Part shown: piece after piece, positions 1 through 7,474 of the stretch
Layout of the letters: each line of letters begins with the position of its first letter
Numbering within the stretch: position 1 is the first letter of the stretch
Assembly: GCA_007136585.1 (NCBI GenBank)
Contig: SLGR01000127.1
Span: 1-9,182, forward strand
Source: Candidatus Sumerlaeota bacterium
GTDB taxonomy: Bacteria > CG03 > SLGR01
Reading direction: 5' to 3'
DNA length: 9,182 nt
The notes under the pieces: model-generated
Seen by the model: only the letters and a program-made list of their open reading frames with translations
What the model was told of the DNA's origin: nothing
Databases searched by the model: none
Program-made: the position numbers and the translations under genes

Positions 1-3000
1 CGGGGAACCGGTTCGTCGACGGGGTCTGCAGGATATGGATACCGCCGGATAAGGCCCAGAAAATCGGGGAACCGGATTCGCAGCACCGCCCGCTGCCCAA
101 GGCGTTCTTTATAACTCTGGACCTTAATAACGAGGCCGAACCGGGCAGGACTATAAGGCTTACCCTGGATGAACCTTCAAATATAGTTCTTTCCCAGCCG
201 AATGTTATGAGCGGGGAGAACCTTCCTTTTACAACGGAGGTATCAACCGTGGTAGCCTCCCCGAGGGTTATGACAGTTACTCCCGAGAGCCGGGCCCCCG
301 AGTGGACGGAGCAGGGGACCAGAAACATACTTATGGCTACCCTGGACCTCAGGGTGGACGGTTATAAAATAGACTGGGAGGAGATGATGATGGTCCGGGT
401 AGGTAACGAACTCTCCAGGGACAGTGACTTCTCCAGGGTGGCGGTTTACCGTAACGTTTCTTCGCACGATCCCGGCGAGGTTCCTCCTTTCTTCCCTGAC
501 GCTGATGTTCTGGTAGCGACCGGGACCGTCGTGGACGGGGCGGTACGGCTTAATTTCAAGGAGCAGTACGGCGCCCAGGAGGTTGATACCCAGGAGCGGT
601 ACTGGTTCATTGTAGCCGATATAGCCCCTTACGCGGAGCCCGGAGCCGAGGTGGGGCTCCGGATAGGGGACAGGTCCTACTTTACGGTTGATTATCCTCA
701 CTCGGTAAGCGAGGAGAATATACCTTTTGAGACGGGGCATATGGAGATACGGCCTACACAGGATACGCTCCTTGTTACACCCGAGGATAACCCTCCCGGT
801 TATGTAACCCAGGGGGATTCCATAGATTACCTGCTTTATATGCGCGATCTATATAACGAGGGAAAGATAGAGGAAGAGCCCCGGCGCCCCTACTACTTTA
901 CGTCTCTTATAATGAGGTCTGACGATAACGCTGTCATCTGGACAGGGATGGACCTTCATCTGGAAGGAACCGCCGGAGACGGGGATGTGGCAAGCGCCCG
1001 CATATACCGGGATACCGGTGGAGAGGGTATATTTGACCCGAGGAGCGACGAGCTTGTAAGCGATGCGATGAACGTCTTCATTGACGGGGTAAGCAGTGTT
1101 GATTTCAGGGAGGCCAGGTTTCAGACGATAACTACCGAACCCAAGGTGTACTTCATAGTCCTGGAGATAGCAAACCTTGCCCGTGTGGGAAGAAGGGCGG
1201 GTTTCAGTTTTACCCAAAGGGATTTCAGGTACGAGGGGGATTCCGATTCCGTGGCCCCGGTTGAGTTTACCTCGTCGCAGCCCGAGATCCGGGAGTTCAC
1301 TGATACGGTCAGGATAATCCCCGAAAGGGATTCCGGAGGCAGACCCTATACACCAGAGAGAGCCGTGCAGGGAGAGCGGGATGTCCTGGTAGACCAGTTT
1401 GTCCTTACCACGAGGAACCCCGACCCGAATATACCGGCATCGGAAGCGGTATGGAGCGGGGTGAGGTTAGATCTGACGGGCGAGTCCGTAATAGAAGATA
1501 TAGAATCTGTAAAGATATACTATGACTCAAATAATAACGGAATCTTTGAACCCGACTCGGATGTACTTATAACTTCAGGCGAGGATATCTTCCGGGAGGG
1601 TAGAAACGCCCATATTGAGCTTACAGAGCCCCAGACGCTCGGGCCGCGCTCAAGAAGGTATTTTATAGTCTACGATCTTGCGGTTGACGCCGAACCGGGG
1701 CACGCCCCCGGCTCCCGCGTAGCCTCCCCGGGTATATTTTCAATAAGCGGGGAGAACGAGATGGCCGATCAGCCCGATACCTACCCGGTCGAGAGCGGCG
1801 ATATATTCATAGATACTATGCGGATGGATTTTGTGACTTCGGACCCGACCCTTGATATTACAGGAGCCAAGCAGGGTGAGAGGGGTGTCCCGGTATGCAG
1901 GTTTACGGTAAGGGTGGATTCGGAGACCGCCGCGGGAGCCGGCGGGAGCCCGACCCTTGACCGTATACGCGTAAGGCGGGTTGAACATCCTTTCAGCTCC
2001 AGTGACGCGGATATAGAGTCAGTGAGAATATACTACGCACCTGACGGGGCCGCGGAACTTGATACAGATTCCGCCGTTCTTGTCTCTTCGGGTCAGGACA
2101 GGTTTATAAACGCTGCGGCGGAGGTGCTTATTTCCACGCATAACGTGATAACAACGCAGGAGAAGACATTTTTCATAGCCGTTGATATCCATCAGGAAGC
2201 CGATGTAAATCATAAACTGCTCTCCATAGCGCTTGATACTAACGAGAACGATATAATTTCCCTGACCCCGTCCCAGAGGATAATAAACCAGCGCGGCGGT
2301 ATGCCCGAGGAGCCTTTCTATATGTCTTCTTACCTGCCTATAAGGCACGAGTTTACCCCTACGACCCCCGTTGTTGAAGTAAGCAGTTGGGTAAACTCCG
2401 CCACCACTGTAAGAGGGGAATGGAGTTCGGCTACCAACTCCGAGTTCGGTATACGCCATAACCAGTACAGAGCGGGCAGATACGATATCTATTCGGATGA
2501 AGGGTGGAGCGACCTGGGGCCGACAACGGATTCGGCGGGGACCTCCAGCGCCGAGGCCACCATACACGGTCTTACCCTGGAACACGGGGAGAGGTACCAG
2601 TACCACGTAAGGACCTGGACCCGCGACGCTGAGGGTAATATGTACGCTTCCGACGTTGGTGTTGCCGAGTTCAGGGTTGACCTTAACCCGCCGACAAAGC
2701 CCGGCCAGCCTGTTCCGCAGCAGGTTGTGCAGGATATACCTCTTACCGATTTTAACGTAAGCTGGGGGGCCTCCTACGATAACGCTACCGATGCCGAGAG
2801 CGGTGTAGCCCGCTACGAGATACAGGAAAGAAGGGATACATCGCCCGTCTGGAGAACCGTGGATTACGTCGACGGCGACCGGCTGAATATATTCATCCAG
2901 GACAAGGAACCCGGGCATTTCTATTTCTACCGGATCCGGGCCCAGGATGAGGCGGGGAACTGGAGCGAATGGTCGGAAATATCCGAGCCGGCTCTGACAG

Positions 3001-3329
3001 GTGTGCCTTCGCGGGTTGTATCGCAGGTATCAAACTACCCCAACCCCGCAAGGTTTGACCAGGGTGACGAGAAGACAACCATAACCTATATACTTAACCA
3101 GGATGCTGAGGTCGAGGTATACCTTTACGATCTTATGGGGCATCTTGTAAGAGAGTGGAAGTTTGCCAAGTCCGCTCCCGGAGGACGACAAGGGCCCAAC
3201 TCGTTTGACTGGTTCGGGGATAACGAGCGTGGCGCGGATGTCGCCAAAGGCGGGTATATACTGCGTATAGTCGTAAAGTCGGACGAGGGGACAATGGAAG
3301 AGACCCGGCGAATAGCCATAATAAGGTAG
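1..3329 (+). CDS. Large secreted repeat / FN3 / C-terminal sorting-domain protein (5' partial)
   Basis: The frame is open from base 3 to the TAG at 3327-3329 (1108 visible codons). No start is needed inside the window: the repeat pattern already runs before the first good ATG at 207, so the gene begins upstream. The N-terminal two thirds are five related units of about 170 residues. Each carries a beta-strand signature of the type (Y/F)FIVxDIAxxAEPG and, in complete units, an IxSVxIYxDxNxxGxF...SDVL segment. Two fibronectin-III-like domains follow (about 2355-2685 and 2690-3005; the second has the typical DEAGNWSEWSE strand). The C-terminus (about 3019-3329) is a FlgD-Ig/type-A sorting-like domain: YPNPARF, then TxITYxL, VYLYDLMGHLVREW, FDWFGDN and GGYILRIVV. 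Such domains (family knowledge) target proteins for outer-membrane export or attachment. I infer a cell-surface adhesin or exported structural protein. The specific ligand or enzymatic role is not recognisable, and no catalytic motif is seen. Confidence 0.88.
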   Translation, partial: GNRFVDGVCRIWIPPDKAQKIGEPDSQHRPLPKAFFITLDLNNEAEPGRTIRLTLDEPSNIVLSQPNVMSGENLPFTTEVSTVVASPRVMTVTPESRAPEWTEQGTRNILMATLDLRVDGYKIDWEEMMMVRVGNELSRDSDFSRVAVYRNVSSHDPGEVPPFFPDADVLVATGTVVDGAVRLNFKEQYGAQEVDTQERYWFIVADIAPYAEPGAEVGLRIGDRSYFTVDYPHSVSEENIPFETGHMEIRPTQDTLLVTPEDNPPGYVTQGDSIDYLLYMRDLYNEGKIEEEPRRPYYFTSLIMRSDDNAVIWTGMDLHLEGTAGDGDVASARIYRDTGGEGIFDPRSDELVSDAMNVFIDGVSSVDFREARFQTITTEPKVYFIVLEIANLARVGRRAGFSFTQRDFRYEGDSDSVAPVEFTSSQPEIREFTDTVRIIPERDSGGRPYTPERAVQGERDVLVDQFVLTTRNPDPNIPASEAVWSGVRLDLTGESVIEDIESVKIYYDSNNNGIFEPDSDVLITSGEDIFREGRNAHIELTEPQTLGPRSRRYFIVYDLAVDAEPGHAPGSRVASPGIFSISGENEMADQPDTYPVESGDIFIDTMRMDFVTSDPTLDITGAKQGERGVPVCRFTVRVDSETAAGAGGSPTLDRIRVRRVEHPFSSSDADIESVRIYYAPDGAAELDTDSAVLVSSGQDRFINAAAEVLISTHNVITTQEKTFFIAVDIHQEADVNHKLLSIALDTNENDIISLTPSQRIINQRGGMPEEPFYMSSYLPIRHEFTPTTPVVEVSSWVNSATTVRGEWSSATNSEFGIRHNQYRAGRYDIYSDEGWSDLGPTTDSAGTSSAEATIHGLTLEHGERYQYHVRTWTRDAEGNMYASDVGVAEFRVDLNPPTKPGQPVPQQVVQDIPLTDFNVSWGASYDNATDAESGVARYEIQERRDTSPVWRTVDYVDGDRLNIFIQDKEPGHFYFYRIRAQDEAGNWSEWSEISEPALTGVPSRVVSQVSNYPNPARFDQGDEKTTITYILNQDAEVEVYLYDLMGHLVREWKFAKSAPGGRQGPNSFDWFGDNERGADVAKGGYILRIVVKSDEGTMEETRRIAIIR
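102..2210 (+). repeat. Five protein-level repeats of ~170 aa within the surface protein
   Basis: The anchor segment AFFITLDLNNEAEPG (102-146) recurs in diverged form at 597-644 (RYWFIVADIAPYAEPG), 1143-1190 (KVYFIVLEIANLARVG), 1653-1700 (RRYFIVYDLAVDAEPG) and 2163-2210 (KTFFIAVDIHQEADVN). The conserved Phe codons fall at 108, 606, 1152, 1662 and 2172, so the periods are 166, 182, 170 and 170 codons. Ahead of the anchor, the units share an (I/V)xSVxIYxD... strand, best seen near 1500-1570 and 2015-2090. The coordinates given span first to last anchor, not exact unit borders. The DNA copies are strongly diverged, so this is an old internal duplication. Confidence 0.75.
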
Positions 3330-3449: not shown

Positions 3450-3535
3450 TGCTGATAAAGGCAACCATCGGGTAACCGATGCACGCAAAGTCACAGCACC
3501 GGGGTATGAAGCTCCGGTGGGCTGGTCTGCCGGCA
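3450..3535 (+). promoter_or_regulatory. Class-I cyclic-di-GMP (GEMM-I) riboswitch aptamer
   Basis: The order of conserved elements matches GEMM-I. These are the AAAGGCAACC segment (3457-3466), a hairpin ATCGG-GTAA-CCGAT (3467-3480) closed by a GNRA tetraloop, the hallmark GCACGCAAAGTC (3481-3492), a second hairpin CACCGGGG/CTCCGGTG (3497-3504 with 3512-3519) and a closing GGTCTGCCGG-type 3' segment. P1 can form from TGCTG (3450-3454) and CGGCA (3531-3535). Aligned by eye to the Vibrio Vc2 aptamer, the adenine stacked between the two ligand guanines would be A3487 and the guanine contacting one ligand base would be G3460. A guanine there favours c-di-GMP over cGAMP, but the strand is one A shorter than the usual GGCAAACC, so that alignment is not certain. 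With the terminator just downstream, it should control transcription into the PorV-like gene. Confidence 0.82.
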
Positions 3536-5267: not shown

Positions 5268-5332
5268 TGCCTGGGAGAAGGAAACCCGTGCCCTCGGTCT
5301 CTGTAAATGTATTTGAGGGTATTTTCAGGTGA
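5267..5332 (+). CDS. Possible 21-aa peptide ending RKPVPSVSVNVFEGIFR
   Basis: The ATG overlaps the stop of the PorV-like gene (TAATG at 5265-5269), a classic coupling arrangement. The frame ends in TGA at 5330-5332. Its last 17 residues match, with 12 identities, the C-terminal 17 residues of the next small frame. In the conserved codons every base difference is synonymous (AGG/CGG, GTG/GTA, CCC/CCG, AGG/AGA), which argues for selection on the peptide. It has no signal peptide or recognised family and is basic at the N-terminus. The same DNA could be a regulatory repeat with accidental coding capacity, so confidence is limited. Confidence 0.4.
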   Translation: MPGRRKPVPSVSVNVFEGIFR

Positions 5333-5474
5333 AACGTACATGAGCATAGACTCACAAAAAACGTTTAAAATACTGAGTCAGTCCCCGACGGCACGGGTTT
5401 CCTCATTCTCGCCTCCGGCTCCGAGGGGTTCCGTCCGAAGGACGCAACAAACCCGGAAACCCGTACCGCCGGAG
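5275..5474 (+). promoter_or_regulatory. Cluster of inverted repeats able to form alternative RNA structures
   Basis: GGAAACCCGTGCC (5280-5292) is the perfect reverse complement of GGCACGGGTTTCC (5390-5402), extended after a bulge by GAGAA (5275-5279) with TTCTC (5406-5410). The same middle strand can instead pair 12 of 13 with 5455-5467. Further possible stems are CTCCGGC/GCCGGAG (5413-5419, 5468-5474), GGGTT/AACCC (5426-5430, 5449-5453), CGTCC-GAA-GGACG (5432-5444) and GACTCA/TGAGTC (5349-5354, 5374-5379). I do not recognise a known riboswitch class here. Confidence 0.45.
5280..5334 (+). repeat. 55-bp direct repeat, copy 1
   Basis: This copy aligns without gaps to 5455-5509 (offset 175 bases), with 44 of 55 positions identical by hand count. 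Shared blocks are GGAAACCCGT, CTGTAAATGTA and GGTATTTTCAG followed by (G/A)TGAAA. Copy 1 has GTG AAA CGT ACA TGA where copy 2 has the fusion gene's start, ATG AAA AAA ACA. The repeat covers the end of the first small frame. Confidence 0.8.
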
Positions 5475-5507
5475 ACTGTAAATGTAGTAGTAGGTATTTT
5501 CAGATGA
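5340..5507 (+). CDS. Possible 55-aa basic Ser/Pro-rich small protein ending RKPVPPETVNVVVGIFR
   Basis: An ATG at 5340 lies 7 bases after AGGTGA (5327-5332), an excellent Shine-Dalgarno match. The frame reaches TGA at 5505-5507, overlapping the next ATG as ATGA, typical of coupled genes. An in-frame ATG at 5307 is a weaker alternative. The protein is Ser/Pro/Arg/Lys-rich with no hydrophobic segment. Its last 17 residues repeat the end of the preceding 21-residue frame. I recognise no family. The coupled position directly before the FliF-FliG fusion suggests a related role or translational control of it (inference). The stretch also contains several strong inverted repeats, so an RNA-structure explanation is the main rival. 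Confidence 0.42.
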   Translation: MSIDSQKTFKILSQSPTARVSSFSPPAPRGSVRRTQQTRKPVPPETVNVVVGIFR

Positions 5508-5509
5508 AA
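5455..5509 (+). repeat. 55-bp direct repeat, copy 2, running into the FliF-FliG start codon
   Basis: This is the second copy of the repeat at 5280-5334. It spans the end of the second small frame and the first two codons of the fusion gene (ATG at 5504). Because the offset of 175 is not a multiple of three, the two copies sit in different absolute frames, yet each is read in the same repeat phase by its own small frame. Confidence 0.8.
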
Positions 5510-7474
5510 AAAACAGCGGTTCTTCTGTTTTTTCTTTTATTATGGGGCGAAGCCCGTCCGGCGGAGTTTACCGATTATACCACTCTTCTCAACCAGAAGA
5601 TGGAAACAGAGAGCAGGCTGGAATCTCACCTGGGGGGGATTGTAGAGAGGGTAGCGGGTGAAAATAAATCCTCTGTTATAGTAAGCGTCCAGGTGAGCGA
5701 TCTGAGCCGGAGCCGCACGCTCACCGAAGAATGGCTTGAAAGTGAGAAAGAGAGCCGCCCGGCCCCGCCCCGCGATAGGGAGATACTTCCGGGGATTCCT
5801 TCCAGGAGCAGGGTTGAAGAGGCTCCCGAACCCCGGCCTGAGGAGAGGGCCGGCGGTAAGCGGGTTGAGGATATTGTCACTCTTCCCTCTGAGTTCATAA
5901 GAGGGGTGAGGGTAAGCCTTATACTTGACCGCGGTGTTCCCGAAGAGGTAGTGGCCACTGTTGAGGGTATAGTCAGGGATATAGTAAATAACATAAGTCC
6001 GGCCGGGGAGAATACTATTGAGACCCGGCTTGTTGATTTTGCCGGAAGGAGCATAGATTTTCTCGGGTTTCTTTTTAACCCTTACTTTTACATTATATCC
6101 CTTATAGTAATTACCCTTATTATACTTGCAGTTTTTCTTTTCGGGCCTCTCAGGAGGTTTCTCTTTGCGGCTCTACAGACGCTAAAAGACTTAAAGGCCA
6201 TGAAATCCCAGACCGAATATACCGGCCCCGGGATGGGGGGCGGAGCCGGGCTCTCAGAGGGTGAGATGGACCTTGAAGAGGAGGAAGAGCTGAGCGGGGA
6301 TGAGGATGAAGAAGGCGAGGAGGGTGAAGAAGAGGAAGAAGATTCTGAAGAAGAACTTATCGCCGAAGGAGAAGGATTAGAAGAGGGGGATATAACAGAG
6401 GAAGAGGAGGAGTTCATTAAAATGACATATAAGCCGCTAAAGTTTCTTGAAGATAAAGACCTTAAGAAACTCGCGTACCTGGTGACTTTTGAAAAACCGG
6501 AGGTCGCGGCGCTTCTTATAGATTACCTTGAGCCCGCCAAGGGGGCAAAGGTAATGGCGGCGCTTCCCGCTGAGAAAAGGACGCCTGTAGCCAAGAGCAT
6601 AGTTAAGATGCAGAGGACCTCCAGGGAGATAATGCAGCATATTGACGAATTTCTCTCCAAAAAAATAGATTATGTCTCCGGGGGCGCGGATCAGCTTGTT
6701 TCAATGCTTGAGGTGATGAGCGAGGATGAGAGGGAGAGACTTCTCAATACGCTGACCGAGGATGATCCCGAGTTTGCCGAAAAGGTCAGAAGCAGGATTT
6801 TCAGCTTTGATGATATAGTGAACCTTGATGATGCTGCGGTTCAGATGATCATACAGGAGTTTGACGCCCAGGATCTCGGGGTTGCGCTTAAGACGGTTCC
6901 CGATGAGATAAAGCAGAAATTCATTAATAATATGAGCGAGGGAGCCGCTGCCCTTCTCAAGGAGGAGATAGAGTTCGGAAGAAATATCACAGAGGCCCAG
7001 ATGAAAGAGAAACAACTGGGTATAGTTAATAAGATAAAGGAGCTTCAGCGCAGGGGCGCCATTGAAGGTATAGCTGGTCCGGCCGGCGACGAACTCTGGG
7101 AAGAGGAACTGGGAGAAGAGGAGAAGGAAGGGGTCCTTGAAGGGATAATAAAGGCGGCCCAGGAGGCTCTCAGAAAGAAAGACGAGATGGAAGCTTCAGG
7201 TTCCCGGAATACTTCCGGCGCCGCTGATGATGAACTTGCTTTTGAAGAATATGAGAAAGGGTTAAACGCCTATAAACAGGAGGATTACGAAAAAGCCGTT
7301 GAGCATTTCAGCAGGTCCGCTGAGTACAATCCTTCGGTATGGCAGACCTATCAGTACCTTGGAACCTGCTATCTTGCCCTGGGGGAAGAGTCCGAAGCAA
7401 AGCGGGCTTACAGCAGGTCCCTTGAGCTTAACCCGTCCAATACGGAGCTTCAGGAATGGCTGGAGTCGCACTGA
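5504..7474 (+). CDS. FliF-FliG fusion: periplasmic FliF C-terminal-like domain, TM helix, acidic linker, FliG middle/C domains, TPRs
   Basis: The protein is 656 aa. Residues 1-20 are a signal peptide (MKKTAVLLFFLLLW...ARPA). Residues 22-70 (LNQKMETESRLESHLGGIVERVAGENKSSVIVSVQVSD in outline) and 131-180 (GVRVSLILDRGVPEEVVATVEGIVRDIV, then VDF) match the split C-terminal periplasmic domain of the MS-ring protein FliF. One TM helix follows (about 194-214), then a strongly acidic linker (about 255-303). FliG-middle homology runs about 310-390 (KFLEDKDLKKLAYL, then EKPEVAALLIDYL in place of EHPQ), then a GGxD-like SGGADQL (392-398). FliG-C covers 421-520 (IFSFDDIVNLDD, VALK, NNMSEGAAALLKEE). Two TPRs (about 578-650) end it. 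Absent are FliF TM1 and its first two ring domains, and FliG-N. In canonical flagella FliF is the MS ring and FliG the rotor surface driven by stators. The ATG overlaps the previous small frame (ATGA). I infer a non-flagellar rotor or scaffold; homology is by reading, not search. Confidence 0.85.
   Translation: MKKTAVLLFFLLLWGEARPAEFTDYTTLLNQKMETESRLESHLGGIVERVAGENKSSVIVSVQVSDLSRSRTLTEEWLESEKESRPAPPRDREILPGIPSRSRVEEAPEPRPEERAGGKRVEDIVTLPSEFIRGVRVSLILDRGVPEEVVATVEGIVRDIVNNISPAGENTIETRLVDFAGRSIDFLGFLFNPYFYIISLIVITLIILAVFLFGPLRRFLFAALQTLKDLKAMKSQTEYTGPGMGGGAGLSEGEMDLEEEEELSGDEDEEGEEGEEEEEDSEEELIAEGEGLEEGDITEEEEEFIKMTYKPLKFLEDKDLKKLAYLVTFEKPEVAALLIDYLEPAKGAKVMAALPAEKRTPVAKSIVKMQRTSREIMQHIDEFLSKKIDYVSGGADQLVSMLEVMSEDERERLLNTLTEDDPEFAEKVRSRIFSFDDIVNLDDAAVQMIIQEFDAQDLGVALKTVPDEIKQKFINNMSEGAAALLKEEIEFGRNITEAQMKEKQLGIVNKIKELQRRGAIEGIAGPAGDELWEEELGEEEKEGVLEGIIKAAQEALRKKDEMEASGSRNTSGAADDELAFEEYEKGLNAYKQEDYEKAVEHFSRSAEYNPSVWQTYQYLGTCYLALGEESEAKRAYSRSLELNPSNTELQEWLESH

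Follow-up and report, generated by a model that had tools for sequence, protein, structure and literature searches.

What might a bacterium use a flagellar rotor protein for when it seems to build no flagellum? The question is raised by a contig of a Candidatus Sumerlaeota bacterium (SLGR01000127.1 of assembly GCA_007136585.1). This contig, analyzed here over its entire 9182 bp and referred to as the window, belongs to a draft genome of 1.88 Mb (88% complete) and carries an open reading frame (ORF) in which a ring domain of FliF is fused to FliG. Judging from its domains and from the gene order in related genomes, the fusion is probably the rotor of a FliG/MotAB rotary motor that is ion-driven and stand-alone, and with which no flagellum would be built.

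A FliF ring domain fused to FliG

The fusion ORF starts with ATG and encodes a protein of 656 aa. The initial annotation had described it as a single frame joining the C-terminal periplasmic domain and transmembrane (TM) helix of FliF to the middle and C-terminal domains of FliG, and Pfam matches, profile searches and fold comparisons all agree with this description. In the FliG half, both FliG_M (residues 322-391, E-value 4e-16) and FliG_C (residues 416-521, E-value 8e-29) exceed the Pfam cut-offs, and the predicted fold of the two domains matches that of FliG bound to MotAB (8ucs) with a TM-score of 0.89 at 1.3 Å. FliG domains were matched in 23 of 23 members of the fusion family at E-values of 0.1 or lower. 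Against the NCBI FliG model the protein scores 140 bits and does not reach the cut-off of 226.7, which is expected because FliG_N, the domain that binds the C-terminal helix of FliF, is absent according to Pfam and the sequence, its place being taken by an acidic linker. A weak FliG_N match at residues 331-419 overlaps FliG_M and was discarded as an internal cross-match.

For the N-terminal half of the window protein itself, Pfam gives no FliF match, although YscJ_FliF_C is matched by 12 of its 23 relatives (best E-value 1e-6), and a profile built from these 23 relatives finds FliF in the PDB (E-value 6e-5), followed by SpoIIIAG (E-value 0.002). The fold of residues 20-236, predicted separately, has FliF (9a67, E-value 1.6e-4) as its top Foldseek match. 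In VIA-align the first 15 rows are all ring-building motif 3 (RBM3) of FliF (Z-scores 9.9-11.8), followed by EscJ (9.0) and PrgK (8.9), and the best alignment is that with residues 227-438 of Salmonella FliF (Z-score 11.8, 2.2-2.5 Å, approx. 98 residues). The only strong TM helix, with a hydropathy maximum of 3.05, is also present in the predicted model. What the protein has of FliF is therefore RBM3 and the second TM helix (TM2), while RBM1, RBM2 and the first TM helix are missing, only approx. 20 residues being placed ahead of RBM3. By their hydrophobicity these residues look like a signal peptide replacing the first TM helix of FliF, as initially proposed. The same criterion, together with the analogy to FliF, suggests a topology with RBM3 outside and FliG inside. 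The C-terminal TPR domain (Table 1) had been missed and extends the earlier account.

The fusion is natural. The same type of protein (type A) is intact in further genomes of one small phylum, represented here by 16 genomes, which are metagenome-assembled genomes (MAGs) mostly deposited as Elusimicrobia. The named loci include those of HGW-Elusimicrobia-2, CSSed10_371m and T1Sed10_83R1, and one of the genomes was deposited as Caldiserica and another as 'bacterium'. An assignment of the phylum to CSSED10-310 was considered and dropped, since the MAG in question is missing from the paper on that group (PMC8248873), which describes genes for a flagellum. Identity to the window protein ranges from 32 to 68%, and codons change at third positions at least 2-3 times as often as at second positions, in the RBM3, linker, FliG and TPR parts alike. 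Given the intact relatives and this codon pattern, the fusion is neither a chimera nor a chance resemblance. Six genomes of the phylum reach 90% completeness with no more than 5% contamination, and the query was matched in each of them. A scan of the genome contigs yielded nine type A loci, the remaining 40 matches being set aside as TPR cross-matches. The survey for other flagellar genes found FlhA, FliM/FliN and flagellin in none of the 16 genomes, while each of these searches detected its target in the positive controls (E. coli, B. subtilis, C. vibrioides and T. maritima).

In the window protein, E487 and E488 occupy the positions of D288 and D289 in the torque helix of FliG. Flagellar FliG sequences (15 rows) retain K264 (R in one row), R281, the acidic pair and R297 (K in one row). 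In the residue table the type A fusions keep K264 and the acidic pair and have lost R281 and R297, and the pair is present in every fusion of type A and of a second type, B (see below). On these residues the predicted torque interface is altered yet not erased. The FliM-binding motif EHPQ, found in all 15 flagellar rows, is EKPE in the window protein and intact in no fusion, in keeping with the absence of FliM from the genomes of the phylum.

Operon, stator genes and riboswitch

Relatives on longer contigs share the gene order porV-TPR, fusion, proline-rich coiled coil, motA, motB. The full order was read from loci L037, L039/L040, L042, L043, L044, L045 and L046, and its coiled coil-MotA-MotB end from genomes G014, G015 and G011. 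MotA and MotB are present in 10 of 10 type A loci with that side sequenced, the PorV-TPR neighbor occurs at every type A locus sequenced on its side, and the operon is conserved over at least four families. The statement that no flagellar genes adjoin the fusion is thus correct within the window, but not for the operon of the relatives, in which flagellar-type motA and motB directly follow the coiled-coil gene (e.g., L037, 16643-18351, and L040, 6683-8421).

Both stator proteins of the relatives were identified by Pfam. MotA has the large cytoplasmic torque domain and is closest to flagellar MotA/PomA (8ucs MotA, E-value 4.5e-51, vs. 0.008 for ExbB), while MotB matches MotB and has an OmpA/peptidoglycan-binding domain. 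The channel aspartate of MotB and both prolines of MotA are retained, as is the TTFYG motif apart from substitutions of its Y and F in one or two rows. In the torque-interface region, a basic residue is preserved among the MotA proteins of type A. The sole MotA_ExbB match in the assembly of the window (C244) is a short ExbB/TolQ-type protein and was not counted as MotA.

The leader of the window's operon contains an element assigned, by sequence and structure, to the cyclic di-GMP (c-di-GMP)-I riboswitch aptamers, with c-di-GMP or a related dinucleotide as the predicted ligand. Its score for RF03167 is 44.4 bits (E-value 1.9e-9), below the gathering score of 59. An element of this kind precedes the type A operon in eight relatives (G005, G008, G015, G009, G011, G006, G012 and G004), exceeding the cut-off of RF03167 in G005 (L047) and that of RF01051 in G012 (L037); at the G001 locus no element was detected. 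When eight copies were aligned, covariation was seen at 13 of 22 pairs, i.e., both sides have changed and pairing is kept. Rfam matches to mir-3913, ncS54 and KCNQ1OT1 were dismissed as chance. Motility and attachment are commonly under c-di-GMP control. The riboswitch-bearing genomes contain just 1-4 such elements each. According to the reading of ORFs, several of the others, including a second one in the genome of the window, precede genes for surface proteins with FlgD-like ends and for PorV-like barrels. These loci (L168, 825-3302; L171, 708-8501; L172, 599-5206; L175, 1-4336) encode C-terminal ends resembling FlgD and those of the type IX secretion system (T9SS), which hints at a c-di-GMP surface regulon in the phylum.

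Features of the window and other fusion types

The window contains four long ORFs, all on the plus strand (Table 1). The partial ORF at its start lies 5' of the riboswitch and is therefore probably transcribed apart from the porV-fusion operon. The PorV/PorQ-family protein matches NF033709 with 128 bits (cut-off 90) at residues 40-300 and carries TPRs at residues 442-507. The coiled-coil protein, truncated here, reaches approx. 1160-1300 aa in most complete relatives. The intergenic region ahead of the fusion gene (5268-5503) is repetitive: the genome contains 36 dispersed matches to it, at 68-100% identity, and it has both direct and inverted repeats inside. It looks like a non-coding mobile or repetitive extragenic palindromic (REP)-like element.

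Table 1. Features identified in the window, with residue numbers of the encoded proteins in brackets.
Feature	Position	Strand	Evidence
Upstream surface protein, partial; FlgD_ig/T9SS-type C-terminal domain	3..3329	+	FlgD_ig 9e-5 and Por_Secre_tail 0.002, both under cut-off
c-di-GMP-I (GGC subclass) riboswitch aptamer, 5' leader of operon	3451..3535	+	Rfam RF03167
PorV/PorQ-family outer-membrane barrel with C-terminal TPRs, 529 aa	3678..5267	+	NF033709 and TPR matches
Rotor fusion: putative signal peptide, FliF RBM3, TM helix, acidic linker, FliG_M, FliG_C, TPR	5504..7474	+	Pfam, fold, hydropathy
RBM3-like, predicted periplasmic domain (residues 20-186), with LPGIP motif	5561..6061	+	Foldseek, VIA-align
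TM helix (residues 193-213), equivalent of FliF TM2	6080..6142	+	Hydropathy, model
Acidic linker (residues 236-305), 35 of 70 residues D or E	6209..6418	+	Sequence
FliG_M and FliG_C (residues 322-521), acidic pair E487/E488	6467..7066	+	Pfam, fold, residue table
TPR domain (residues 583-650)	7250..7453	+	Pfam TPR_1/TPR_2
Proline-rich N-terminus and long coiled coil, cut by contig end	7518..9182	+	ORF; gene order of relatives

Besides type A, the phylum contains two more fusion types, B and C. Downstream of most of these lie genes for MotA and, usually, for two MotB-like proteins; the type B copies of G008 and G007 are exceptions. In ten MotB pairs (types B and C, and G223, a genome outside the phylum), the first MotB has the TM aspartate, as in WLTIYSDLMTNLMLFF, and the second has N, S or T at this position, as in WIVPYGNLMTILMIFF. 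The clusters encoding such pairs are L048, L049, L050, L051, L052, L054, L110, L111, L112 and L148. This arrangement suggests an asymmetric heterodimer with a single ion-binding site.

In a sample of 290 genomes searched past the phylum, fusions were found in seven (G223, G082, G137, G274, G058, G203 and G132), of which G223, G082 and G058 are without FlhA and the other four have it. MotA/MotB adjoin the fusion in G223, G082 and G137. The FlhA-containing G274 encodes two proteins of 886-911 aa (L155, 7640-10300, and L156, 5750-8485), composed of a long N-terminal part, an RBM3-like stretch and FliG, each adjoining a PorV-like gene; the N-terminal part of the first has TPR and SLH matches. Diverged RBM3-TM-FliG proteins of G058 and G203 (L157, 7823-9778, and L158, 6905-8839) have no adjoining MotA and are flanked by a probable lipoprotein gene and genes for small outer-membrane-like proteins. 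In an unrooted tree of the FliG_MC region, flagellar sequences group together (support 62/92), type A forms a firm clade (100/96) and the remaining fusions are deep and long-branched. Being unrooted, the tree does not order the fused and the flagellar form by age.

A possible rotary motor, its alternatives and known systems

The initial annotation had seen in the fusion a FliG-type rotor face serving another purpose, and this view is strengthened by the flagellar-type motA and motB conserved in the operon of relatives in which no flagellum was detected. In such a motor, the periplasmic RBM3 domains would form an S-ring-like ring, each subunit being held by one TM helix, and the fused FliG_MC domains would form a ring at the cytoplasmic face. 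The downstream genes would supply MotA/MotB stators, anchored to peptidoglycan, which would engage the acidic helix of FliG_C and cause turning. In place of the absent FliM/FliN, scaffolding or control is probably provided by the C-terminal TPRs and the coiled-coil protein. The output would probably appear at the cell surface, via the PorV-TPR protein and surface proteins with FlgD/T9SS-like C-terminal domains, as gliding, movement of adhesins or powering of the secretion of surface proteins, and expression would be under the control of c-di-GMP through the riboswitch.

Several observations weigh against this proposal. Matching MotA/MotB genes were not found in the window's own draft assembly, which is most simply explained as a gap at a contig break: the contig breaks off within the coiled-coil gene, and the stator genes are expected just past its end. 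The full-length model of the fusion is of low confidence (pLDDT 60), for which reason the N-terminal part was predicted alone. The charge pattern of the interface is altered by the loss of R281 and R297, conserved in flagellar FliG, and in some fusions of type C and of other lineages one or both acidic residues are gone as well. The loss of the two arginines would also suit a static envelope scaffold or mechanosensor, in which MotA/MotB leak ions or sense load and nothing rotates, as would the second MotB of types B and C, devoid of the channel aspartate. We nevertheless consider this unlikely, as the aspartate is always present in the first MotB, the prolines and TM motifs of MotA are retained, and so is the EE pair of FliG_C in types A and B. 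A more serious competitor, which we still place behind the proposal of a motor with output at the surface, is that the motor serves to secrete or export surface proteins dependent on PorV, in the manner of GldLM in the type IX system, and does not move the cell. It would account for the PorV-family barrel within the operon, for the surface proteins with FlgD/Por-type C-terminal domains that lie nearby and under the same riboswitch class, and for SprA_N matches in 6 of 16 genomes, that of the window among them. These matches, though, are weak and confined to a short segment of the model, and c-di-GMP control suits motility or adhesion at least equally well. The two outputs are not exclusive, and on present evidence gliding or adhesin movement and the powering of T9SS-like secretion are not separable.

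That a lost flagellum left this locus behind as a decaying remnant would agree with the lack of flagellar export, switch and filament genes in the phylum, but is very improbable for an intact ORF under purifying selection, occurring as three fusion types, with an operon maintained over at least four families and with an added TPR domain and riboswitch. An assembly chimera or chance resemblance, for which nothing speaks except the MAG status of the sequence, has a negligible probability in view of the same fusion in independent genomes and assemblies and of the strong profile and fold matches. Regarding the proposed motor, the chances seem about even that it represents a separate class of rotary machines occurring in several lineages, which would combine a FliG rotor fused to an RBM3 ring with flagellar-type MotAB, lack a flagellum and type III export, and move surface adhesins, types B and C having a two-gene, asymmetric MotB with one ion-binding aspartate.

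A recent survey reported that, among species regarded as non-motile, 11% possess FliG, FliM or FliN as a rotor protein and no filament proteins, asked what use half a motor might be, and proposed an alternative function (PMC12199754; 2025). The locus offers a concrete, testable answer: a single operon that encodes a putative, complete torque unit (rotor plus stator) and no export apparatus, switch or filament. Should this unit turn, the FliG/MotAB engine would be a module able to work alone, which would bear on the origin of the flagellum and on the workings of other gliding and secretion motors; the locus also names a compact gene set for structural work. The open-access literature yielded no account of a FliG/MotAB motor that operates without a flagellum; preprints and most subscription papers lay outside the search, and an earlier description may exist. 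A 2026 review of gliding (PMC13104615) covers the motors GldLM and AglRQS and makes no reference to FliG, and work on stator evolution sets flagellar stators apart from generic ion transporters (PMC12505986).

With the flagellar motor, one of the closest known systems, the proposed motor shares RBM3 and TM2 of FliF, FliG_M and FliG_C, and flagellar-type MotA/MotB with a peptidoglycan-binding domain. It differs in being one fused polypeptide without RBM1/RBM2, FliG_N, FliM/FliN, export apparatus and flagellin, and in having gained a TPR domain and lost the EHPQ motif and R281/R297. Fusions of FliF to FliG have reportedly been engineered in Salmonella. They are also known from Vibrio alginolyticus (PMC11481574), and such laboratory constructs likewise place FliF in frame with FliG; they are full-length and flagellar, whereas the protein described here is natural, cut to RBM3-TM and FliG_MC, and not associated with a flagellum. 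SpoIIIAG and the ring proteins of type III secretion systems (EscJ/PrgK), the next-best profile and fold matches, are ring-building motif proteins as well, but have neither a FliG domain nor a MotAB partner. GldLM of the Bacteroidota type IX secretion-gliding machinery and AglRQS of Myxococcus resemble the proposed motor in being ion-driven and in their proposed action on envelope or surface proteins, and PorV-family barrels and Por-type C-terminal domains are also found near this locus. In those systems there is no FliG rotor, whereas here a FliG rotor is combined with a flagellar-type MotA/MotB stator.
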